Shown in pieces: positions 977 to 31,953 of a stretch of DNA of 37,189 nt. This DNA comes from Neochlamydia sp. AcF84 (lineage in GTDB: Bacteria > Chlamydiota > Chlamydiia > Chlamydiales > Parachlamydiaceae), in NCBI RefSeq assembly GCF_011087585.1, contig NZ_VJOT01000003.1:1-37189 (forward strand). Direction: 5' to 3'. The notes below the pieces were generated by a model. The model saw only the letters and a program-made list of their open reading frames with translations. It was not told where the DNA came from and made no database searches. Positions within the stretch are counted from its first letter, which is position 1; each line of letters opens with the position of its first letter. The position numbers and the translations under genes are program-made.

Positions 977-2611
977 ATGCATTTAAAAATTTTGACAATT
1001 TTTTTTCTTTTAAGTACTTCATTATGTTGGGCCAAGGATAATTTTGTTGCCGATTTGACAGTTAAAATCCCCATGCGAGATGGTTATGAATTACCAGCCG
1101 ATATTTATTTTCCCGCGGAGGGAAGGGAAAAAAAAGCTCCTTGTATTTTATTAAGATGCCCGGCAGGTCGCAAAGCAATGCCTTGGGTGGGATATACCTC
1201 CCTCACTCATTTTGGCTATGTAGTCGTTATGCAGGATACCCGGAATGCTTTAGATATCAATGGAAAGACGGCTCCTTTTATCACCGATGGCTGGGGAGCT
1301 TTACAAGATGGGTATGATACAGTTGAGTGGTTAGCAAAAAGCCCTTATACAAATGGAAAGATTGGGACCTTAGGTTTTTCAGCCGTAGGTTGCACCCAAC
1401 TGCTGCTAGCACCTTCTGCACCCCCATCTCTTAAATGTCAGTATATTGGAATTGCCGCTGGTAGCTTATATCATCACGCCATTTTTCCAGGTGGACAGCT
1501 ACATAAAAATCAGGTAGAAGGATGGCTAGGATATTATTCTAAAGATACAGGTGTGTTAAGCTTTGTAAGCTCTCAGCCTTTTTATAATGCATTTTGGGAG
1601 GAGTTAGACTCAATCAAGGTGGCACAAAAAGTGAGAGTACCAGGATTTTTATATGGAGGGTGGTATGACACCTTTTTGCAAGGGACCATCGATGCTTTCG
1701 TCTCTCGGCAGAATAATGGAGGAAAAGGTGCTTTAGGAAAGCAGAAACTGCTGATAGGGCCGTGGACTCATTGGTGGCCTATATCCTCCAAGCTAGGTGA
1801 TTTTCCAGTTCCTCCTCAAGGATTTTCTCCTTCTTATGATATGTCTCCTCAACGTTGGTTTGATTATCACCTTAAAGGCATAGAAAATGGTGTAGATCAA
1901 CTGCCTCCCGTTACCTATTACGTTATGGGTCCCTTTGATGGCTCGCCTTCGAAAGGAAATGTATGGAAAACTGCTGAAAATTGGCCTATACCTGCTAAAA
2001 ATAAAGCTTTTTATTTGGGGCAAAAGCATAAATTAATAACCGAGATAACAAAAGAAAAAAGGGGTGTCTATTCCTTTAATGCTGACCCTAAAAATCCTGT
2101 TCCTACAATAGGGGGGCGTAATCTCTTTCTAGATTGTGGCCCTAGAGATCAGCGAACGATTGAAAGTCGTTCCGATGTACTGGTATTTACTACCGAACCC
2201 TTAGAAGAAGACATGGAAGTGACTGGACATTTATTAGCTAAATTATATGTAACTTCCAATGTTTCTGACACCGATTTCGTCGTACGTTTAAGTGATGTTT
2301 ACCCCGATGGGCGTAGCATTTTAATTTCCGATGGAATCCATCGAACAGCCATCCAGTCTTCTCAACTAAAAAGATGGGCTTCTTTGCAAAAGCCTTATGA
2401 AATTGAAATTGATCTAGCTTCTACGAGTATGGTTTTTGCCAAAGGACATCGCATAAGAGTCTCAATTTGCGGTTCAAATTTTCCTCGCTACGAAGTTAAT
2501 CATAACGTGGGCTTATTAGAAGCGACTTCTGGGCGGTGTGCTGTGGCCCGCAATAAAATCTATACAGGCCCTGGTTATCCATCACGACTTATTTTACCGC
2601 TAGTTGAGTAA
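977..2611 (+). CDS. Secreted CocE/NonD family serine hydrolase (peptidase S15-like)
   Basis: 544-residue alpha/beta hydrolase of the cocaine-esterase / X-Pro dipeptidyl-peptidase superfamily. An N-terminal signal peptide (hydrophobic residues 4-18, cleavage probably after CWA) points to export. The family opening MRDGYELPADIYFP lies at about residue 33. The nucleophile elbow is GFSAVG (about residue 135; canonical GxSxxG). The catalytic Asp is likely in GGWYDTFLQG and the His in GPWTHWW (about residue 262). The C-terminal 200 residues fit the jelly-roll domain of this family (a VRLSDVYPDGRS stretch and a GHRIRVSICGSNFPRY stretch). It should hydrolyse an ester or amide bond; the substrate cannot be told. 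Single transcription unit: a non-coding gap lies upstream and a hairpin terminator sits between its stop and the convergent mcsB. Confidence 0.88.
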   Translation: MHLKILTIFFLLSTSLCWAKDNFVADLTVKIPMRDGYELPADIYFPAEGREKKAPCILLRCPAGRKAMPWVGYTSLTHFGYVVVMQDTRNALDINGKTAPFITDGWGALQDGYDTVEWLAKSPYTNGKIGTLGFSAVGCTQLLLAPSAPPSLKCQYIGIAAGSLYHHAIFPGGQLHKNQVEGWLGYYSKDTGVLSFVSSQPFYNAFWEELDSIKVAQKVRVPGFLYGGWYDTFLQGTIDAFVSRQNNGGKGALGKQKLLIGPWTHWWPISSKLGDFPVPPQGFSPSYDMSPQRWFDYHLKGIENGVDQLPPVTYYVMGPFDGSPSKGNVWKTAENWPIPAKNKAFYLGQKHKLITEITKEKRGVYSFNADPKNPVPTIGGRNLFLDCGPRDQRTIESRSDVLVFTTEPLEEDMEVTGHLLAKLYVTSNVSDTDFVVRLSDVYPDGRSILISDGIHRTAIQSSQLKRWASLQKPYEIEIDLASTSMVFAKGHRIRVSICGSNFPRYEVNHNVGLLEATSGRCAVARNKIYTGPGYPSRLILPLVE

Positions 2612-2638
2612 GGTTTGCTTTATTTAATAAGGAAAGAG

Positions 2639-2663
2639 GCTTGCTAATTATAAATTAGCAAGC
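2639..2663. terminator. Hairpin between convergent genes, likely bidirectional terminator
   Basis: Perfect 11-bp stem GCTTGCTAATT / AATTAGCAAGC with a 3-base loop, 28 bases after the hydrolase stop and 17 bases after the mcsB stop on the other strand. T-rich DNA follows on both sides (2671-2680 on plus; CTCTTTCCTTATT on minus), so it could end both transcripts. Confidence 0.65.
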
Positions 2664-2679
2664 TAGGCAAGCTTTATTT

Positions 2680-3753
2680 TTAGACTCTTAGATGAGCTTG
2701 AAGAAGAGCTTTATGGATGAACTCGGCTCTTTTATGGACAATTTCTTCCTGGGGTAGATGGGTTTTCTCATGAAATTCTGCTAGCAAATGAGATCTTCGA
2801 CAATTAAAGAATAGTTGATTGATGGATTGGCGGGAGATGCCTTCTACCCAGCCCATCTCTATTCCTAATTTAAGGAGGCTGATCGCATTCAGGGCTTCAA
2901 TAGCATCAATTTGATAAGAATGCGTTAAAATACCAAAGGCACGGCTGATTTTATCTTTAATATAAGGATTACTACTCGCTCGAATTTGATTTCTGGCCAT
3001 ATTTTCTTCGACAACCATTTTAGTAGCAAAGGCATTTAAATTAGAGATAATCGATTCCTCGGTAACGCCTAAGGTATAATTGTTTTGCACGACTAGCAAA
3101 TCACCAATGATTTCTTGGGGAGAGCCGCGAATACCGGAGCAAGCAATGCTTTCCTCTTTATTTTTTTCTACTATTTCCTCCATTTTTCCTGTATGGACAA
3201 GAGCGGGAAGCTGAAGATAGATAGAAACAAGTAAAGCTGTTCCGCAGCTACCTATATCTGCAGTAAGAAAGCCATATTTAGCATTATAAGCAAAAGAAAT
3301 GTTATGGCCAATAGTGGTTTCAATTTTTAAAAGTTTATTCCAAGCCTTCTCTAGTTCGCCTTTACATTCGATAAGTTGCAAGTGGAGATGATTGCGAATA
3401 TTAAAAGAAGCTAAAAATTGTCCTGAAGCGTCAATGATAAAAGCTTCTCCTGAATGAGCCTGGATGAAATTATCATTAGACCAGAAATGTTCTCCTAGAA
3501 ATTCTTTCTCAAAAGGTTCCATTTCTTCTGCCCGAATAAGAGTAGCTTTCTCAAGTAGATCTAAAGAGAGGATTTCTTTGCTTAAAACTGAAACCACCTG
3601 CTTACGTCGCTCTGTACTAAGTTTACCCGGGAAATTGAATTTTTCAAGGTTTCGATGTAGATGAAGAATGGAAGCTAGCCAAATATCATTATCATTGTCT
3701 TGCCAAAGTTTTTTCTGGTTAATAATAACATTAGATTTATCATTGGGGGCCAT
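2680..3753 (-). CDS. mcsB: McsB-like protein-arginine kinase (phosphagen kinase fold) with altered active-site motifs
   Basis: About 357 residues, the usual McsB length, directly after mcsA. The order mcsA-mcsB downstream of frr matches Chlamydia. Family landmarks: WLASILHLHRNLEKFNFPG (where McsB has its SxRxRxARN region), FLTADIGSCGTALLVSIYL followed by LPALV (nucleotide-binding region), and IRGSPQEIIGDLLVVQNN then TLGVTEE (C-terminal ATP-grasp region). McsB phosphorylates arginines to mark proteins for ClpCP in Firmicutes. Here the NEEDH catalytic loop of Bacillus McsB appears as NIRNH, and the TACPTNLGTG stretch as TADIGSCGTA, so catalysis may be changed or lost (inference from remembered motifs). 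The ATG at 3753 has GGAG 7 bases upstream and overlaps the mcsA stop; an ATG at 3768 is possible but lacks this signal. Confidence 0.85.
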   Translation of the reverse strand: MAPNDKSNVIINQKKLWQDNDNDIWLASILHLHRNLEKFNFPGKLSTERRKQVVSVLSKEILSLDLLEKATLIRAEEMEPFEKEFLGEHFWSNDNFIQAHSGEAFIIDASGQFLASFNIRNHLHLQLIECKGELEKAWNKLLKIETTIGHNISFAYNAKYGFLTADIGSCGTALLVSIYLQLPALVHTGKMEEIVEKNKEESIACSGIRGSPQEIIGDLLVVQNNYTLGVTEESIISNLNAFATKMVVEENMARNQIRASSNPYIKDKISRAFGILTHSYQIDAIEALNAISLLKLGIEMGWVEGISRQSINQLFFNCRRSHLLAEFHEKTHLPQEEIVHKRAEFIHKALLQAHLRV

Positions 3754-4300
3754 TGCTTTTCTCCACATTTTCTTCTGTCAAAGCTCTAATTTGATCACGT
3801 AGCCATGCAGCTTGTTCATAGTCTTCTCTTTTTAGAGTCTCATTGAGGGCTTCGTTAAGAGCTAGTAGACGCAAGGAGGGGCTGATTTCTCTAACCTCAC
3901 CTGGGCTGCGCCCAATATGGAGTGGAAAAATTTTTTTATTAGCTTTTACGCGAGGAGGAACTTTATCAAGAATGAGGAGTTCTTGTAAGATAATGTCATC
4001 AAAAACCTCGTAGCAGTTGCTACATCCTAAAGAGGCCCCTACCCGTAATGCTTCTAAAGAGGTATTACATTCTCCACAAGCCAAGCTGGTTTCTCCCACC
4101 ATATGGCCCATCTCTTTTTCACTTGTTTGGCCATGTAGCTTACGTCGCAAGATAGGGCAGTCTGAACACATGCCCGTTTGCGAGATGTTATTTCCTATGA
4201 GCTCCGTATACCAAATGGCGATAGGTTTCTTGCATTCTGTGCATTCAATGGGTCGTTCAGGAACTTGCTCTTCAAAAAATTCAAAGGCTTTTTTAACCAT
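3740..4300 (-). CDS. mcsA: McsA-like zinc-ribbon/UVR-motif activator of McsB
   Basis: About 187 residues. Four CxxC pairs form two zinc ribbons: CTEC and CSDC in the first 50 residues, CGEC and CSNC further on. A C-terminal UVR motif follows (about residues 148-180: LNEALNETLKREDYEQAAWL then RDQIRAL), as in UvrB/UvrC/ClpC/McsA. In Firmicutes McsA binds and activates the arginine kinase McsB; overlap with mcsB by 14 bases implies translational coupling. The open frame runs 58 codons further upstream, but that part has no family resemblance, and the Met of MVKKAFEFFEEQ at 4300 begins the conserved part, so the shorter start is used. It lies downstream of the tRNA pair, across a 560-base gap. 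Confidence 0.85.
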   Translation of the reverse strand: MVKKAFEFFEEQVPERPIECTECKKPIAIWYTELIGNNISQTGMCSDCPILRRKLHGQTSEKEMGHMVGETSLACGECNTSLEALRVGASLGCSNCYEVFDDIILQELLILDKVPPRVKANKKIFPLHIGRSPGEVREISPSLRLLALNEALNETLKREDYEQAAWLRDQIRALTEENVEKSNGPQ

Positions 4301-4862
4301 AGTCGATCTTTTGATAGATGTTATATATTTACACCTACTATAGAAAATGTGAGCAAAAAAGTATAAATTTATTTTCGTAGGGAGAGTTTTTTTTTGCTTA
4401 TTTGGCTTTGGCGTCAATGAGCAGTTTTTTTTCTCTAGCTGGCAGGATTTTAGTAGAGGCTTAAAGCTTAGCATTAGCTTGCGAAAAGCTTAAAGTTTAT
4501 CTATTCATTTATAAAAAGCTAATTTTTCTCTGATTTTTATAAGGCTAAGAGCATAAACTTATTTTAGTATCCTCTTCCTTTAAGTTTAATCAATTGCTAG
4601 GATGAGGACGTTTAATGAATGCATAAAAGGTAGGTGGATAGGGAATTTAATTAGATCAATATAAAAGGGAAAAATGAAAAAGCAGATGCTTTGTAAGCTT
4701 AAAGGGCTTATTTAAAAGGTAAAGGATTTCTAACGAAAAAATAATCGGCTGGGCTTACTGGCAATGGGCTTGATAAATGCTTAACTTAAACTAGCATGAG
4801 TAGAAAAATAAAAGCAATTCAAGGGATGAGATGGAAAGCAAAGTAGAAATTGCTTAAAAGCT
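4301..4862. other. Intergenic region between tRNA-Lys and mcsA
   Basis: No convincing gene. The mcsA frame stays open to 4474 but is probably non-coding there. A putative tRNA terminator sits at 4803-4855. Any mcsA promoter must lie here, but no clear -35/-10 pair was chosen. Confidence 0.4.
4803..4855 (-). terminator. Possible terminator of the tRNA transcript
   Basis: On the minus strand, AAGCAATT (4855-4848) can pair with AATTGCTT (4819-4812), followed at once by TTATTTTTC. The 28-base loop is long, so this is tentative. It sits 8 bases after the tRNA-Lys 3' end. Confidence 0.38.
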
Positions 4863-4935
4863 TGAGACTTGATGGACTCGAACCATCGACCCTCTCATTA
4901 AAAGTGAGATGCTCTACCGACTGAGCTAAAGTCTC
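4863..4935 (-). tRNA. trnK: tRNA-Lys (anticodon UUU)
   Basis: Full cloverleaf on the minus strand: acceptor GAGACTT / AAGTCTC, D arm with GCTC...GAGC, anticodon stem TCTCA / TGAGA around loop CTTTTAA (anticodon TTT), T arm GATGG-TTCGAGT-CCATC. Discriminator base A. The 3' CCA is not encoded. It lies 7 bases downstream of tRNA-Glu and is probably cotranscribed with it. Confidence 0.96.
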
Positions 4936-4942
4936 GTGCAAT

Positions 4943-5017
4943 TGACCCCAAGGGGATTCGAACCCCTGTTATCGGAATGAAAATCCGGTGTCCTAGGCCA
5001 GGCTAGACGATGGGGCC
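4943..5017 (-). tRNA. trnE: tRNA-Glu (anticodon UUC)
   Basis: Cloverleaf on the minus strand: acceptor GGCCCCA / TGGGGTC with one G-U pair, anticodon loop TTTTCAT (anticodon TTC), T arm AGGGG-TTCGAAT-CCCCT, discriminator A. CCA not encoded. The outermost anticodon-stem pair looks like a C-A mismatch (27-43), the other four pair. First of the two-tRNA unit, downstream of frr. In bacteria this tRNA also feeds haem synthesis through glutamyl-tRNA reductase (general knowledge). Confidence 0.95.
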
Positions 5018-5025
5018 TGACTGGC

Positions 5026-5054
5026 ACCTTATAAGGTTGAAAAACTTATAAGGT
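5026..5054. repeat. Twin palindromic box CTTATAAGG upstream of the tRNA genes
   Basis: ACCTTATAAGGT (5026-5037) is a perfect 12-bp palindrome. A second copy of its core, CTTATAAGGT, lies at 5045-5054. The two copies can also form a 10-bp stem with a 9-base loop, followed by a T-run on the plus strand, where no gene precedes it. It ends 9 bases upstream of tRNA-Glu. It may hold the tRNA -10 box (TATAAG), an operator pair, or an RNA stem between frr and the tRNAs. Confidence 0.5.
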
Positions 5055-5119
5055 ATTTTTTCTTCAAGTTTCCTTAAAGAGGCCTAATGTTACAGGATTT
5101 TGACTTTTATAAGCAATAA

Positions 5120-5671
5120 CTAAATGGTGATAATTTCTTTTTCTTTTTTTTCTGCTAGCTCGTCAGCTTCTTTGCAAAACTTATCGGTCAACTCTTGAAC
5201 ATTTTTCTCATTCCTTTTCAGCCCATCTTCAGTAAGCTCACCAGCTATTTTTTGTTTTTTGGCAGCTTCATTAAACTCGCGGCGTATATTACGGATGCTA
5301 ATTTTTGCTTCTTCTTTCTTTTTATGGCATTGCTTAACCATTTCTTTGCGCATATTTTCATCCATAGGAGGAATCTTAATGCGTATAGAATTAGCATCCA
5401 CAATAGGCATGAAGCCTAAATTAGCTTTTTCAATGGATTTGCCAATCGCATTTGTTGTAGAAGGATCAAAAGGGGTAATTAAAAGCGTGCGCGCTTCAGG
5501 GGCAGTCACATTAGCAACTTCTTTGATACGCATGCTAGAGCCATAAATTTCTACAAAAATGCTATCTAACATACCAGCATTGGCACGATTAGTGCGTAGA
5601 GATTTTAAATCATTTTTCAAATGTTCAATTGCCACTAACATCTTGGATTTCGCTTGTTCAAGAATATTCAT
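5120..5671 (-). CDS. frr: Ribosome recycling factor
   Basis: 183 residues, the usual length. RRF signatures: [20 protein letters not shown] (about residues 25-44), [20 protein letters not shown] (about 68-87), [20 protein letters not shown] (about 97-116) and the [13 protein letters not shown] helix. With EF-G it splits post-termination ribosomes. GGAG lies 9 bases before the ATG. It follows pyrH by about 50 bases in the same direction, as in most bacteria, and precedes the tRNA pair. Confidence 0.97.
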
Positions 5672-5720
5672 TATACAACTCCATTTTCCTAAATTCAGGC
5701 TGTCTATTAAGATACTTTTC

Positions 5721-6443
5721 TTAACTAATTAATGTTCCGTCTTCCGTTTTCGATAATATTTGTTTTAAAGATTCTTTTCCAAGAGCTTCCATGCTAAACA
5801 CAAAAATAGGAAGCTGATTATTCATGCAAAGAGCGATGGAAGTTGTATCCATAACCTCTAGCTTTTCTGTAAGATATTGGGAGTAAGATAAAGTCCTATA
5901 TTTTTGTGCTTGAGGGAATTTCAAAGGATCTTGCGTATAGACACCCTTGACTTTGGTAGCCTTAAGCAAAACATCAGCTTGTATTTCGCAAGCACGTAAG
6001 GCAGCAGCGCTGTCCGTAGTGAAATAAGGATTACCGGTGCCACCTACGAAAAGGACAATATGGCCAGCAGCAAGGTAATCGTTAGTGCGGTTCCAGTTAT
6101 AGCTTTCAGCCACTTTAGGACATTCCAGGGCGCTTATTAGCTTAGTTGTACAGCCGATAGAAGTTAACGCTTGCTGTAGGGCTATACCATTCATAAGGGT
6201 AGCTAGCATACCCATTTGATCTGCCGCAGAGCGAGGGATTTTTGAGCCTTTTAATTGAATGGCTCGAAAAATATTTCCTCCTCCAATGACCAAAGCTAAT
6301 TCGAAACCCTCTTGCTTTATATCTTTTAGCGATATAGCTAGCTGCTCCGCAGTCGGAAAATGGACGCCAAAAGGTTGCTCCCCTAGAAGGGTTTCTCCAG
6401 AAAGTTTTAACAAGATTCGCTTAGCGTTAGATAGATTTGTCAT
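5721..6443 (-). CDS. pyrH: Uridylate (UMP) kinase
   Basis: About 240 residues of the amino-acid-kinase fold. It shows [19 protein letters not shown] at the N-terminus, the glycine-rich [10 protein letters not shown], the [19 protein letters not shown] helix and the [20 protein letters not shown] region followed by DPLKFPQA, all typical of bacterial UMP kinase (UMP + ATP to UDP + ADP). ATG at 6443 has AGGA about 11 bases upstream; an in-frame ATG at 6455 (adding MKKT) sits too close to that site but cannot be excluded. In Chlamydia, rpsB and tsf precede pyrH; here 390 non-coding bases precede it instead, so the block is split. Confidence 0.96.
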
Positions 6444-26113: not shown

Positions 26114-27289
26114 ATGAGCCCAATTTCTATGACTCTCGAACTTCTCCCTGATGAAATACAAGTCCACATTTTAAAGGATTGCGCTAGCCCTTCCTTATTT
26201 GGCGTTTGTACAAGATGGCAACACCTGCTAGCTAATGAAGTTATACCCTCTCTTTATAAGCAAATAGGTAAAATGCACTTTCCTCAACGAAAAGCTACCG
26301 AGCAGGCTAACCTTTTAGATAAACTTTACAAGCTCCCAGCTGGGCTTTCTATACAAGCAAAGGTAAATGAAATTTTTAGGCAAACCTTCGCTCTAGCTAA
26401 ATCTCTTGCTCCAGCGGAATTTAGAGGCCAAATCGAAGAAAGAAAATATTTTACCCTGGCTAATTATACTTTACTTCTTTTAAACATTAATCGTCTTTTA
26501 ATAGAGTCTAGATTGCCCGGCTATAAAAAATATTTAAACCGACCAGACATCAAAAATCTGCCCTTAAAAAAGAAAGAAAAGCTTTTAGCAGGTTGGATTA
26601 AAAGGTATGGCAAAAATATTAAGAAATTTGAGCTAACAGGAAGCGAATTGACTTCTTTGCCTTCCGAGATAGGCCGATTGTCTAAGCTACATCAGCTTAA
26701 ATTAAACGATAATCGCTTATTTACCCTTACGGCAAAAATAGGAGAGCTTTTTAATCTAAAAGAGCTTTGCTTGAACGGCAACCATCTCACCTCACTTCCT
26801 GCAAAGATAGGCCAGCTCTCTGAGCTCCAAGAACTTTTCTTAGGCGGTAACAAGCTAATTACCCTTCCTGCAGCCATCGGGCAACTTTCTAAGCTGCGAG
26901 GGTTGTATTTAAACGATAATCAACTTACCATTCTTCCCGCGGAAATAGGAAACCTCTCTCAGCTGCAAGAGCTTTTCTTAGGCGGCAACAAACTAACTAC
27001 TCTTCCCTCAACAATCGGGCAACTTTCTAAGCTGCAAGAGCTGTACTTAAACGATAACCAGCTTACCATGCTTCCTGAGGAAATAGGAAACCTCTCTCAG
27101 CTAAAAGAGCTTTTCTTAGGTTGCAACAAACTGGCTATCCTTCCTCCTACGATAGGACTTCTTTCGCAGCTGCGGCTACTTTGCCTAAGCAACAACCAGC
27201 TAGCTGTTTTGCCTGCAAGTTTAAAGCAGTTGCCCGCAGGAATAGATCTTAACCTGGATGGAAACCTGCTGGAGAGCATTCCCTCTTGA
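26114..27289 (+). CDS. F-box-like leucine-rich repeat protein, candidate effector
   Basis: 391 residues. The N-terminal 40 residues resemble a short F-box (LLPDEIQVHILKDC, then FGVCTRWQHLLANEVIPSLY). A helical spacer follows to about 170, then about ten 23-residue LRRs of the type NQLTILPAEIGNLSQLQEL, in the bacterial/plant intracellular class with LP and IG. LRR proteins bind other proteins. F-box plus LRR is the architecture of eukaryotic FBXL substrate receptors, so this may recruit host targets to SCF ligase (inference). No signal peptide. The repeats alternate between two types (GGNKL and NDNQL), giving a 46-residue super-repeat. Ribosome site AGGA 6 bases before ATG. LRR call firm; F-box call moderate. 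Confidence 0.88.
   Translation: MSPISMTLELLPDEIQVHILKDCASPSLFGVCTRWQHLLANEVIPSLYKQIGKMHFPQRKATEQANLLDKLYKLPAGLSIQAKVNEIFRQTFALAKSLAPAEFRGQIEERKYFTLANYTLLLLNINRLLIESRLPGYKKYLNRPDIKNLPLKKKEKLLAGWIKRYGKNIKKFELTGSELTSLPSEIGRLSKLHQLKLNDNRLFTLTAKIGELFNLKELCLNGNHLTSLPAKIGQLSELQELFLGGNKLITLPAAIGQLSKLRGLYLNDNQLTILPAEIGNLSQLQELFLGGNKLTTLPSTIGQLSKLQELYLNDNQLTMLPEEIGNLSQLKELFLGCNKLAILPPTIGLLSQLRLLCLSNNQLAVLPASLKQLPAGIDLNLDGNLLESIPS
26825..27150 (+). repeat. 138-bp tandem repeat inside the LRR gene
   Basis: Units begin at 26825, 26963 and 27101 (CTCCAAGAAC, CTGCAAGAGC, CTAAAAGAGC), exactly 138 bases or two LRRs apart. The first two units are highly similar at the DNA level; the third diverges after about 50 bases. 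This indicates recent duplication of an LRR pair. Confidence 0.85.
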
Positions 27290-27836
27290 ATTGAAGCAGT
27301 GTTTTAGCCTCCCTATTTAAGTAATAATCTTATAAGGCGTTTTAAATCATTTTACCTGTGATTATAAAAAACGTAAGCGGTCACGCGAATTATCAATTGA
27401 TTCGCGATAAATAAAACAATTTTTAGAGTTTGTGTTTACTTAATCATATGTTGAATAGTATGCAATCATTATACGGGCAGCTAGTTACAGAATAAAAGCC
27501 ATGATTACCTACTGGTAAATCCTCCCTACTAAAGGAGGAAAAGCTGTTTTAGCAATTTCTTCTCTTTTTGCCTCTTTCTAAGCATTCTGCTTAAGGTTTT
27601 TAATTTCTTGTACATTGCCTAGAGGGTGTGTGTGTTATTTTTCCTCAAAAACAGGTAGAAGTAATAGACTCCTTAGCTACTCCTTATGCAATCGCTTAGC
27701 CTAGCAAAGTCTCTCTTTAACTAAAAACGCAGTTTTTAGAGCTTGAGTGTGCAGACTTAGCTTTTCTTAAGCACTATAAATGCACCTCTTCATATGAGGC
27801 TGGCAACTTTATAAGGAGAGTGGCTAGCGATAAACT
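27290..27836. other. Intergenic region between convergent genes
   Basis: 547 bases without a gene. Two hairpins: the AT-spaced palindrome at 27384-27406 and TCCTCC / GGAGGA (27520-27525 with 27534-27539). No classical U-tract follows either. Confidence 0.4.
27384..27406. repeat. Inverted repeat CGCGAAT / ATTCGCG
   Basis: Perfect 7-bp arms with a 9-base spacer (TATCAATTG) in an AT-rich gap, about 95 bases after the LRR gene. A GC-rich stem here stands out. It may be a terminator lacking a T-run or a protein site. Confidence 0.4.
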
Positions 27837-30503
27837 TTAAAGGCGAGCATCATTGACCAGCTCTTTAATAAATCCTATAATTATTTGGTTTTCTTCGGGA
27901 TTTAATCCTGGATTTATTCTTATAGTACTAGAGCCTTCTTCTGCATTAACGGCGATAATGATGCAATTAGGGTGATAAAATCCAAAGCTAGCTCGAGAAT
28001 GTACCTTTATCCCTTTCTTTAGGCATTTTTTATAGAAAAGCCCCATAATAGCCCTACTTTTTATGGCATGACCTTTCCCTATAAGTTTTATATCGATAAA
28101 GGAACATTCCATCTCTGGATCTGCGGTGCTAATGCGTATCTTCTGGCTACTTTTCTTGCCTAAGGGCTGAAGAAGCCGGGGAACATGATCAAGGATTTCC
28201 CTAGTATTCTTAAAAATAGCCGCTCGATAACTATCCATTTGCTCAGTAGTATACTTATAAGCAAGAGAGAACCATTGAAGACTTAGTTTATCGGTTTTAT
28301 GGGCAATGTCTTCAGTTAAGGAATCAAAGGCATCCCAGGGAGCTTTTCCATTATTAACCATGTAAAATGGGGACCCATAGTAGTTATCCATTCCAAACAT
28401 ATCAAATTTCTGTCCACTACGGAAAAAGACAAAGTTTAACTTACCCTCTTTTATTTCCTCCTGGAAGGTGGTAAGCAAATCGCGGGCTTTAGGAGAATTG
28501 ATATAATCGATTGTGCAATCGACCGCTACCGTAAGTTGCTTATTTTCGTTTTTTTGCGCTAGTATTTGTCGGATATCTGCTTTGATATCCCTTACCGCAT
28601 AGTGGGTATGTTTGGCATCAATTTCAATATTAGGATTAAATTGACAAGCGTATAGATCAATTTGCTTTAAGCTTGTATCTTGTAAAGCGTTCTCAATACG
28701 CTGGTCGTTGCCTATAAAGCTTGCTTGCTCATAATAAAAGCCTGTACTAAATACTCGGGTAGGGTGAGGGTTCAGTTTTGATAAGGCCGCATTGATTCCA
28801 GCGAATACGTTGACTGCCGTCTTACCTAAGCCTGCTTTTATCAAGGGACGCAGTTCTTCTGGAATGTTTGCTAACTGCTTTGGCAAAATAGTAGGGAATG
28901 CCTTTTCTTCAAAAGGAGCTGTAAGCGTTAAAAGGTTAGCAATTTCGCAATGAATCAGCTCAATTTCCTGTGCATACTTCCTATAATCGTTCATAAAAAG
29001 TTCTGCTGTGGCCAGATGTTCTTTTATTTTAAACAAGGAGGTTTGAATGATTTCACGTTTTATTGGATGTTTTTGCAACTCTTTCCATTGCTTGCCCCTG
29101 ATTTCATTAAGTAGACCCCTTAAAAGATGTAAGGTAGATTCGCCTAAAATAGCTAGATGAGGAGAGTGGGCATGCATTTTTGGAGAAGAAATTTTTTCTA
29201 AGAATCTTTCAAAGAGTGCTAGCTTGGTGAAATCAAGCCTATCAGGAAAATAAACATCTTTGTTAGGAAAACCTTTAGCATCAGGACCTTTAATAGGGTA
29301 TTTAATATCCGGTCTAATATTAAAGCCATTAAGAATATGTGCACGCATGTTAATAGCGCCGATATACAAGCCGGTTTGCTCAATAAAATCTAAAAAGGCA
29401 GGGTGCTTTTGAAGAATTTTTTTACCTTGTAAGCTAGAAAAGAGAGGTAAAACTTTGATGCCTGCAATTTCGTCAAGCTTTAACCTGCAAATGCAGGTGC
29501 TATTTTTTTTCAACAATTTTTTAAATTTACCTGTAGAAATTTTACTAAATTCAGGATGCTGCTTTCTAAATTCTTCAATTGACCTATCAAATGAGCGATT
29601 AAGGCTTGTACGTAGTAAATTCAATTGCTTTTCAAAAGCTTTTTCCTTTTCTCTTTCTCCATTAGTTTTGGCTAAGTCTTCCAAAGAAGGAGTTAAATCC
29701 ACTAGTAAGCTAACATTCATCGTTTGGGAAAAAGCTTTGCGTGGTTCCTTGGCAAACTTTGAAAAATGTGCATGTAGGGCTTGAGTAATTGTGTTTTCCC
29801 ATTTAGCTTCGGGCATTGCATTATCAATCACATAGAAGTTTAAAGGAAAAAATTGAGTAACCTCGGTAGTATCGGTAAGAATGAGAGGGCTCTTACGAGT
29901 AAATGCTAAATTTTTATTAATTTCAGCTCCTAATTCTGTATTTTGTCGAAATCCCATGCGATGGTAATGATAATTCGTATAGGGTCCCACCTGGAATAAT
30001 ATTCCAATTTTTCTTTGCAATAATTTCATCATGTTAAGATAAATAGGGGCAGATTTTTCCAAATAATTGGTCGCCATGAACTCAATTTGTTTCTTTAACT
30101 GGGGATCCTGTGTTTTTTTATAGGAATCCTTCAGCAGCGCTAGGTTAAGACTCCAATCTGTTTGTGAATTCTCTATGGTTGCTACGCTTTCTAAAAGTCC
30201 ATGATAGGATCGTCGCCTTATATGCAGAAGGCGGTGAGCTAGGTCAGATATTAACTGTAAGAGTTTAGTAAGACCTTCTTTTAGGATTGATACAAAAACT
30301 TCCCCTCCAAGGGTAATATTTCTTTTTAATACTTTAATGAAAGATGAAATACGCATTTTAAAAGATGCTAGGGCGCACTCATGGGTTTTAGATGAGCAAG
30401 AAGAAGAAATACTACTATAAATTTTAGGGGCTACGGCTTCTTGAGCCATTAAAGGATTTTTAGAATGATAGTTAGGAATATTCATTTCTATGTTATTATC
30501 CAT
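27837..30503 (-). CDS. 888-residue protein, family unrecognised; C-terminal half looks like a PLP fold-type-I enzyme
   Basis: I do not know this family by name. The N-terminal 600 residues are mostly helical, with a hydrophobic stretch near 65-95 but no signal peptide. The C-terminal part (about 580-888) has features of PLP-dependent fold-type-I enzymes: LTVAVDCTIDY (about 657-667; the Asp would hold the pyridine nitrogen), then 38 residues later FFRSGQKFDMFGMDNYYG (about 696-713; the Lys would form the Schiff base), and a C-terminal KKGIKVHSRASFGF...STIRINPG segment (about 825-865; the Arg would bind a carboxylate). A Ser-Thr-rich N-terminus would suit a type III signal. Start ATG at 30503 lacks a clear ribosome site; an in-frame ATG at 30485 is possible. 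Function should be treated as unknown; enzymatic role is an inference. Confidence 0.6.
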   Translation of the reverse strand: MDNNIEMNIPNYHSKNPLMAQEAVAPKIYSSISSSCSSKTHECALASFKMRISSFIKVLKRNITLGGEVFVSILKEGLTKLLQLISDLAHRLLHIRRRSYHGLLESVATIENSQTDWSLNLALLKDSYKKTQDPQLKKQIEFMATNYLEKSAPIYLNMMKLLQRKIGILFQVGPYTNYHYHRMGFRQNTELGAEINKNLAFTRKSPLILTDTTEVTQFFPLNFYVIDNAMPEAKWENTITQALHAHFSKFAKEPRKAFSQTMNVSLLVDLTPSLEDLAKTNGEREKEKAFEKQLNLLRTSLNRSFDRSIEEFRKQHPEFSKISTGKFKKLLKKNSTCICRLKLDEIAGIKVLPLFSSLQGKKILQKHPAFLDFIEQTGLYIGAINMRAHILNGFNIRPDIKYPIKGPDAKGFPNKDVYFPDRLDFTKLALFERFLEKISSPKMHAHSPHLAILGESTLHLLRGLLNEIRGKQWKELQKHPIKREIIQTSLFKIKEHLATAELFMNDYRKYAQEIELIHCEIANLLTLTAPFEEKAFPTILPKQLANIPEELRPLIKAGLGKTAVNVFAGINAALSKLNPHPTRVFSTGFYYEQASFIGNDQRIENALQDTSLKQIDLYACQFNPNIEIDAKHTHYAVRDIKADIRQILAQKNENKQLTVAVDCTIDYINSPKARDLLTTFQEEIKEGKLNFVFFRSGQKFDMFGMDNYYGSPFYMVNNGKAPWDAFDSLTEDIAHKTDKLSLQWFSLAYKYTTEQMDSYRAAIFKNTREILDHVPRLLQPLGKKSSQKIRISTADPEMECSFIDIKLIGKGHAIKSRAIMGLFYKKCLKKGIKVHSRASFGFYHPNCIIIAVNAEEGSSTIRINPGLNPEENQIIIGFIKELVNDARL

Positions 30504-30618
30504 AATTAAGTTATTTATTTTTCTAACAATTAGATATTTTATATTAATTGTAGTAAATAATAAAAGAATTATTTCTGTCAGTTTTATTTAAAACAAAAAA
30601 ATTAGTCTTATTTTTTAC

Positions 30619-30647
30619 TTGAAGGTTTTCTTCAAAAATCCTATAGC
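30619..30647 (+). promoter_or_regulatory. Candidate promoter and operator of the metal-efflux operon
   Basis: TTGAAG (30619-30624) and TATAGC (30642-30647) are 17 bases apart, about 50 bases before the first gene. The -35 box is part of a perfect inverted repeat TTGAAG-GTTTT-CTTCAA (30619-30635), a plausible repressor site. No regulator gene is adjacent. Confidence 0.4.
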
Positions 30648-30696
30648 AGGTAATCACGTCAGCGGAAAATATTAACACATACTCTTGTAAATCCCT

Positions 30697-31953
30697 ATGA
30701 GATTGTCTAAGTTCCCAAAATTAAGTTTAGCGCTTTACTTTTACCTCTGGCCTTGGCTAATGGAAGCAAGATTACTAACTTTAGATGAGGCTACCCAGCG
30801 AGCTTTAATTTATTCTCCTGCCGTAGCCATCGTTGAGACCGCATGGAAAGTTAGGCAATCGGAGGAATATCAGGCAAGCTTTCTACCAAATCCCTTAGCT
30901 TCCGTAGAAATTGATAAAGCTAATTTAATTGGGAAAGAGAAAAAAAGAGCGAGAGATCGAGGATTTTCTTGCAATTTATCGCAATCCATTGAATTAGGGG
31001 GTAAAAGACATCTTCGAAAACAGACTGCTGGACTCCAAACCTCATTAGCCTTCAAAGAAATAGAAGTTACAAGGTTAGAGGTAAGTTGCCAGGTAAAGAA
31101 AGCTTTTATTGAAGTGGCTGCTGCGCAAGAGTATTTGCGCTTTGCTCAAGAACTCCAACTAAGTGCCCAAGAGGTTTTTTTTTCCACTTCGGCAAAAGTT
31201 GAAGGAGGAAAAATATCTTCCTTAAAAGGAAAGAAAGCTAAGTTATCGGTATTAACCGCTCATCTAGCTTTAGAAAAAGCTCGCAATAATTTTGAAAATT
31301 CTAAAAAAAAGCTCGCTCTGATTTGGGGAGATAGCCGTCCAGACTTTACTTCTGTTGATTATAATCTTTTAGAAATTACTTTAGTCGAGGATCTTGCTGC
31401 CTTCATTGCTGAGCAAAATGATAATATTGCAACGAAGCAATGGGATCTACAGATAGCAAATGCTGACCTCCTGATTGCGAGTGAAAAAGCGCAACGTATT
31501 CCTAACCTTGTAGTTACCGCAGGATATGTCAGCTCTGCTGAGGACGGAGAAGGACTATTGCTTGGATTTTCCATGGCTATTCCGATATGGGATAGAAATC
31601 AGGGCAACATTTCTAAAGCCAAGCATTTATTAAAGCAGCTTTATAACAAAAGAAATAAAGACAACTTGCAAGCGCGCCTGCAATTAGAAGCTGAGTATGC
31701 ACAACTTCTCACTGCTTACCAAGAGGGCCTATTATATAATAATGATGTTTTGCCTATAGCTTTAGCGACTTTTGAAGGTGCCAAACAGGAATACTTGCAA
31801 GGAAAAAATGATTACCTTGAACTTCTAGAGGCCCAGCGTACTCTTCTTGATGTGCATGACAAGTATATGCATGCTTTAGTGGATTATCATCAAAGAAAAA
31901 TAGAGCTCTATCGATTGGTAAGGGTGGGCTATGCAGATACGCAGGGGCGCTAA
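30697..31953 (+). CDS. TolC-like outer-membrane efflux protein (CzcC type)
   Basis: 418 residues, the normal size for a CzcC-type outer-membrane factor. N-terminal signal (LSLALYFYLWPWLMEA) then LTLDEATQRALIYSPAVAIV, the start of the classical OEP repeat. Two such repeats with long helices follow; a GFSMAIPIWDRNQGNI stretch at about residue 290 is typical. The C-terminal repeat contains YLQGKNDYLELLEAQRTLLD. It forms the trimeric outer-membrane tunnel for the RND pump. First gene of the operon; 24 bases before the next gene. Ribosome site weak. Confidence 0.88.
   Translation: MRLSKFPKLSLALYFYLWPWLMEARLLTLDEATQRALIYSPAVAIVETAWKVRQSEEYQASFLPNPLASVEIDKANLIGKEKKRARDRGFSCNLSQSIELGGKRHLRKQTAGLQTSLAFKEIEVTRLEVSCQVKKAFIEVAAAQEYLRFAQELQLSAQEVFFSTSAKVEGGKISSLKGKKAKLSVLTAHLALEKARNNFENSKKKLALIWGDSRPDFTSVDYNLLEITLVEDLAAFIAEQNDNIATKQWDLQIANADLLIASEKAQRIPNLVVTAGYVSSAEDGEGLLLGFSMAIPIWDRNQGNISKAKHLLKQLYNKRNKDNLQARLQLEAEYAQLLTAYQEGLLYNNDVLPIALATFEGAKQEYLQGKNDYLELLEAQRTLLDVHDKYMHALVDYHQRKIELYRLVRVGYADTQGR

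Follow-up and report, generated by a model that had tools for sequence, protein, structure and literature searches.

Which activity can be assigned to a chlamydial protein of 888 residues that matches no curated model? The question is raised by a gene of Neochlamydia sp. AcF84 (assembly GCF_011087585.1, contig NZ_VJOT01000003.1), of which positions 1 to 37,189 of the forward strand were analysed; this whole stretch of 37,189 nucleotides is called the window in the following. An earlier note, made from these letters alone, had described the open reading frame (ORF) at 27837-30503 as a large unrecognised protein, and this description holds. The ORF lies on the minus strand, starts with ATG and is, judged by its substitution pattern, a real gene, because the ratio of nonsynonymous to synonymous substitution rates (dN/dS) is only 0.19 overall in comparison to a congener (G001), which has a full-length, 89% identical orthologue at the same place, ahead of efflux genes. 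The C half is the most constrained part because dN/dS is lowest at residues 456-888 (0.15, compared to 0.21 at residues 101-455 and 0.31 at residues 1-100). We consider it fairly likely that the gene encodes a pyridoxal phosphate (PLP) enzyme of fold type I nearest to the Cys/Met (gamma-elimination/replacement) branch, which is built as a single-chain pseudo-dimer and perhaps acts on the host. The parts of the gene are as follows.

27837..30503, minus strand: whole gene, 888 amino acids, stop codon included, ATG start
30204..30503, minus strand: residues 1-100, possibly a signal or targeting region; low confidence, least conserved
29145..30203, minus strand: residues 101-453, alpha/beta N half, probably a degenerate fold-I large domain without Lys
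27840..29144, minus strand: residues 454-888, predicted PLP fold-type-I half nearest to the Cys/Met branch (AlphaFold2, Foldseek, VIA)
29958..29966, minus strand: Y180-x-R182, proposed PLP-phosphate pair from the N half (conservation, likeness to BesB/CndF)
29697..29699, minus strand: D269 in VDLT, conserved Asp of the N half (69/76 members)
28518..28520, minus strand: D662, predicted contact to the PLP pyridine nitrogen (77/77 members)
28407..28418, minus strand: S696-x-x-K699, predicted phosphate contact and Schiff-base Lys (S 77/78, K 78/78)
27918..27920, minus strand: R862 in RINPG, predicted contact to the substrate carboxylate (76/76 members)

Fold and active site of the C half

AlphaFold2, run on the window protein together with 50 relatives, returned a model with a predicted local distance difference test score (pLDDT) of 88.1 and a predicted template modelling score (pTM) of 0.87, in which residues 1-100 mostly reach only 31-64. 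Foldseek matched the model to 824 PDB chains at E<=1e-3, with cystathionine gamma-synthase (CGS) at the top (E 1.3e-7, probability 1.00). With VIA-align, cystathionine lyases and synthases, methionine gamma-lyase, and sulfhydrylases were aligned at Z-scores of 21.0-22.4 over a span from residue 454/529 to 888, with 285-319 aligned residues and a root-mean-square deviation of mostly 3.2-4.5, and all 50 VIA entries listed for the window protein are of the Cys/Met type or close to it. The matches in BFVD are viral PLP-type enzymes. The C half, as modelled, almost certainly has PLP fold type I and is nearest to the Cys/Met gamma-family, which agrees with the fold that the earlier note had proposed for it.

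Conservation was counted in 82 distinct members of the family, with the members having the respective column as denominators. Essentially invariant are D662 (77/77), S696 (77/78), K699 (78/78), G704 (78/78), D706 (77/78), and R862 (76/76). At the level of sequence, the invariant D662, S696, K699, and R862 are the signature of fold-type-I PLP enzymes, and the D/K/R pattern is beyond chance because it is nearly invariant among so many distinct relatives. The earlier note had picked the same Asp (VAVDCT) and Lys (SGQKFD, counted there as K700), although the two are 37 and not 38 residues apart, and it had rightly seen an aminotransferase-like ending, which comprises the segments ASFGF (about 838-842) and STIRINPG (about 859-866). 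In profile alignments, D662 and K699 coincide with the PLP Asp and the Schiff-base Lys, respectively, of both the chlamydial CGS and two further enzymes, CndF (PDB 8zif/8zij/8zil, a PLP-dependent gamma-lyase) and BesB (PDB 9aua/9aub; Streptomyces cattleya plasmid locus L176). Prediction and conservation together make it very probable that the active-site residues are assigned correctly. The working site would thus be located in residues 454-888, where K699 would hold PLP as an internal aldimine and D662 would contact the pyridine nitrogen of the cofactor, S696 its phosphate, and R862 the substrate carboxylate.

CGS and methionine gamma-lyase (PF01053) have the fold of the C half in common with the chlamydial family (Z 21-22), and likewise the PLP Asp, Lys, and Ser and the C-terminal Arg. 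However, by sequence the family falls outside PF01053 in its present definition, because the window protein does not match at the PF01053 cut-off and none of 51 members is listed with a match, because the S-x-T-K-Y-x-x-G-H motif is absent (Q, L, A, I or V are commonest before K699, and GMD stands in place of GHS), and because PF01053 enzymes carry Y-x-R on an arm of the same half while that of the chlamydial family is found at 180-182, in the other half. The hhalign score to the canonical chlamydial CGS is weak.

The N half as a possible partner domain

Some 600 helical residues had been supposed in the earlier note to precede the PLP-like part, as an unrecognised sequence fused to it. This view was not borne out: the PLP-like half already begins near residue 454-530. 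Residues 101-453 have a mixed alpha/beta structure, occur in almost every full-length member, and are probably a degenerate second fold-I half. Modelled alone, residues 101-455 reach a pLDDT of 86 and a pTM of 0.79. In a second look with VIA at the N half alone, of the 50 rows listed, 46 bear titles of PLP fold-I enzymes or of mutants or scaffolds derived from them, with Z-scores of 3.7-4.4, and the matches cover about 140-180 residues corresponding to residues ~45-303, the large domain, of aspartate aminotransferase. It is this one-sided list, and not the height of the Z-scores, that makes the N half appear fold-I-like.

In Cys/Met enzymes, the PLP phosphate of one subunit is bound by a Y-x-R motif contributed by the other. 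This motif lies 29 residues before SGM in the chlamydial CGS, and the C half of the family does not contain a conserved Y-x-R between residues 430 and 560. In the N half, Y180 is kept in 73/74 and R182 in 72/74 members, with a variable residue between them.

The best architectural match is provided by CndF and BesB, which were located with a consensus of STR2-type fungal enzymes that served as bait only and is no evidence. Common to these enzymes and the chlamydial family are the fold-I C half, an SGM-like strand, the Asp motif VDxTI, and the Lys motif SxxK. As in the chlamydial family, Y-x-R belongs to the N-terminal part; in BesB and CndF it lies 135-180 residues before SGM (the spacing in CndF includes a filled gap of 48 residues). 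VIA aligned CndF over 379-392 residues of the model (174/189-888), compared to ~290-315 for most one-domain enzymes. The profile of the divergent members matches CndF/BesB with Prob 80.5 and E 1.3e-5. However, the chlamydial N half is much longer than the N part of BesB/CndF, SGQKFDMxGMDN stands against SLTK, the overall profile score is weak, and the chlamydial family is restricted to its phylum. The N-half profile gave no significant sequence match to the N part of BesB/CndF, and BesB as query over the Chlamydiota matched only within Cys/Met enzymes of ordinary size, without a bridging form. The best reading is that the chlamydial protein is a remote cousin of BesB/CndF-type enzymes.

Because of the VIA list of the N half, the displaced Y-x-R, and the alignment of CndF over both halves, a single-chain pseudo-dimer seems reasonably likely. 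In such a protein the N half, as a second, decayed large domain that lacks the Lys, would stand in for the second subunit of ordinary dimers and lend Y180-x-R182 to the PLP phosphate. The P-protein of glycine decarboxylase also unites, in one long chain, a fold-I half that has decayed and another that works, but differs in the fold branch of the working half, in size, and in reaction. If true, the pseudo-dimer shows how a fold-I enzyme turns into one chain with a decayed partner half.

Place of action and reaction

The family may act on the host because relatives are locally amplified and fused to F-box, ankyrin, or pentapeptide and C26 domains. A 1689-residue member carries an N-terminal F-box (L073 in G100; 1146-6212), two members of ~1515 residues have pentapeptide repeats together with a peptidase-C26 (glutamine amidotransferase-like) domain (L071:399-4940 and L072:2251-6804 in G104), and ankyrin repeats are found in 1/51 members. 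The PLP residues are retained in the F-box and C26 fusions; in the F-box member these are the K and D of the PLP site, and the R of Y-x-R is replaced by K. In view of these fusions and of the neighbouring gene for a leucine-rich repeat (LRR) protein like NEX1, a role in or towards the amoebal host is plausible, with the chances about evenly balanced. The earlier note had spoken of an unrecognised chlamydial enzyme or effector; the enzyme is likely, and the effector appears possible from the domain fusions of the relatives. A precedent for a fold-I PLP enzyme as effector in an amoeba-adapted bacterium is the sphingosine-1-phosphate lyase LpSpl of Legionella, which differs in being a relative of a eukaryotic enzyme, in belonging to another fold-I branch, and in not being a pseudo-dimer chain. 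More specifically, and this we regard as rather unlikely, the family could consist of single-chain pseudo-dimeric PLP enzymes that are delivered to the protist host, with some members steered by their F-box, ankyrin, or pentapeptide modules, to perform beta/gamma chemistry on a host metabolite, a peptide, or a protein side chain. Such delivery, if true, would mean that environmental chlamydiae also use PLP chemistry in their effectors, whose main theme so far has been ubiquitin-pathway proteins (PMC4209131).

Several results speak against a pseudo-dimeric, host-acting Cys/Met-type enzyme. Searches of the window protein against Pfam, NCBIfam, and PDB sequence models gave no recognition and only chance-level matches, and no eukaryote-like domain was found in it. 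The profile of the whole family aligns weakly with CGS or CndF/BesB (Prob 1-20; 13-20 for CndF/BesB). Foldseek found nothing significant for the N half, and its VIA Z-scores are low (3.7-4.6) and may reflect no more than a common arrangement. In the alignment of the N-half to the C-half profile, D269 is paired with D662 (VDCT), which is not significant (P 0.083).

The strongest alternative, less probable but to be taken seriously, is an ordinary bacterial enzyme of metabolism or of specialised metabolites, of the BesB/CndF type, which works on free amino acids in the chlamydial cell and has no host role, the fusions being side branches. The nearest architecture indeed belongs to enzymes of free amino acids, most other members also lack eukaryote-like domains, and a full-length PF01053 enzyme was found neither in the window genome (G000) nor in G001, both searched as whole genomes, while the congeners G002 and G003 have one each. 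However, the patchy distribution, the local amplification, and the fusions would be unusual for core metabolism, and most loci do not have conserved biosynthetic neighbours.

The enzyme may catalyse an elimination or a replacement at the beta or gamma carbon of a substrate of the amino-acid type. This class is taken from the nearest fold branch only and is tentative, and enzymes of one fold can differ in their reactions. It is rather improbable that the protein belongs to a different fold-I branch, such as that of an aminotransferase or a decarboxylase. Histidinol-phosphate aminotransferase and AONS follow closely in the Foldseek ranking, and with D and K 37 residues apart the protein comes nearer to aspartate aminotransferase (36) than to CGS-type enzymes (about 25), but the listed VIA entries are of the Cys/Met type, likeness to the Cys/Met branch is seen in Y-x-R, in the Asp at K+7, and in the R-x-x-x-G ending, and the profile of the divergent members picks CndF/BesB. 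A catalytically dead PLP-fold protein serving as a binding scaffold would fit the extreme divergence, the missing model matches, and an N half that has apparently already lost its Lys, but is very improbable given that essentially all 82 members, the F-box and C26 fusions included, retain the D, S, K, and R residues of the C half and that dN/dS is lowest in this half. With the reading as PLP enzymes, unannotated chlamydial proteins become predicted enzymes whose cofactor and residues can be named.

Distribution and gene surroundings

The family is predicted to comprise Chlamydiota-wide, patchy but widespread PLP enzymes without a name that are related to the enzymes of sulfur amino acids; a literature search found no account of it. 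Relatives of the window protein are present in 58 of 232 Chlamydiota genomes. A prokaryote-wide scan with one genome per species found 40 loci, nearly all of them labelled as chlamydial; it used two conserved peptides, so that distant forms outside the Chlamydiota could be missed. Searches of the phage, plasmid, IMG/VR, and viral collections found no relatives, so nothing points to a gene of phages or plasmids. Some genomes contain multiple copies: G007 has five genes and G014 at least four, arranged in tandem or as divergent pairs. The window genome encodes one more, distant paralogue (G000:C12, 24% over 131 residues). Another member (L104; G102:C47:83050-85632) is broken into three consecutive reading frames and appears to be a decaying copy. 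AllC, PvuRts1I, LPD15, and CC_BshC were considered as identities of the window protein and rejected, being far below the cut-off.

Near the gene, at 26114-27289 on the plus strand, an LRR protein is encoded (LRR by Pfam, with an F-box-like start by eye), which resembles the NEX1 family of Neochlamydia. NEX1 is an expanded family, and based on a heterologous secretion assay expanded families have been suggested to be effectors (PMC4209131). BLAST found similar ORFs near other family members (L003, L028-L031). No Rfam RNA reached the gathering score within 27000-31500.

At six loci, a small alpha/beta-hydrolase (200-227 residues, nucleophile motif GYSMGG) is encoded directly 3' of a family member in convergent orientation, and the two are a recurring gene pair of one subclade. 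The hydrolase genes are located as follows.

L121:10445-11032, minus strand: alpha/beta-hydrolase
L122:7918-8598, minus strand: alpha/beta-hydrolase
L123:2738-3337, minus strand: alpha/beta-hydrolase
L124:3764-4414, minus strand: alpha/beta-hydrolase
L147:6359-7039, minus strand: alpha/beta-hydrolase
L149:749-1408, minus strand: alpha/beta-hydrolase
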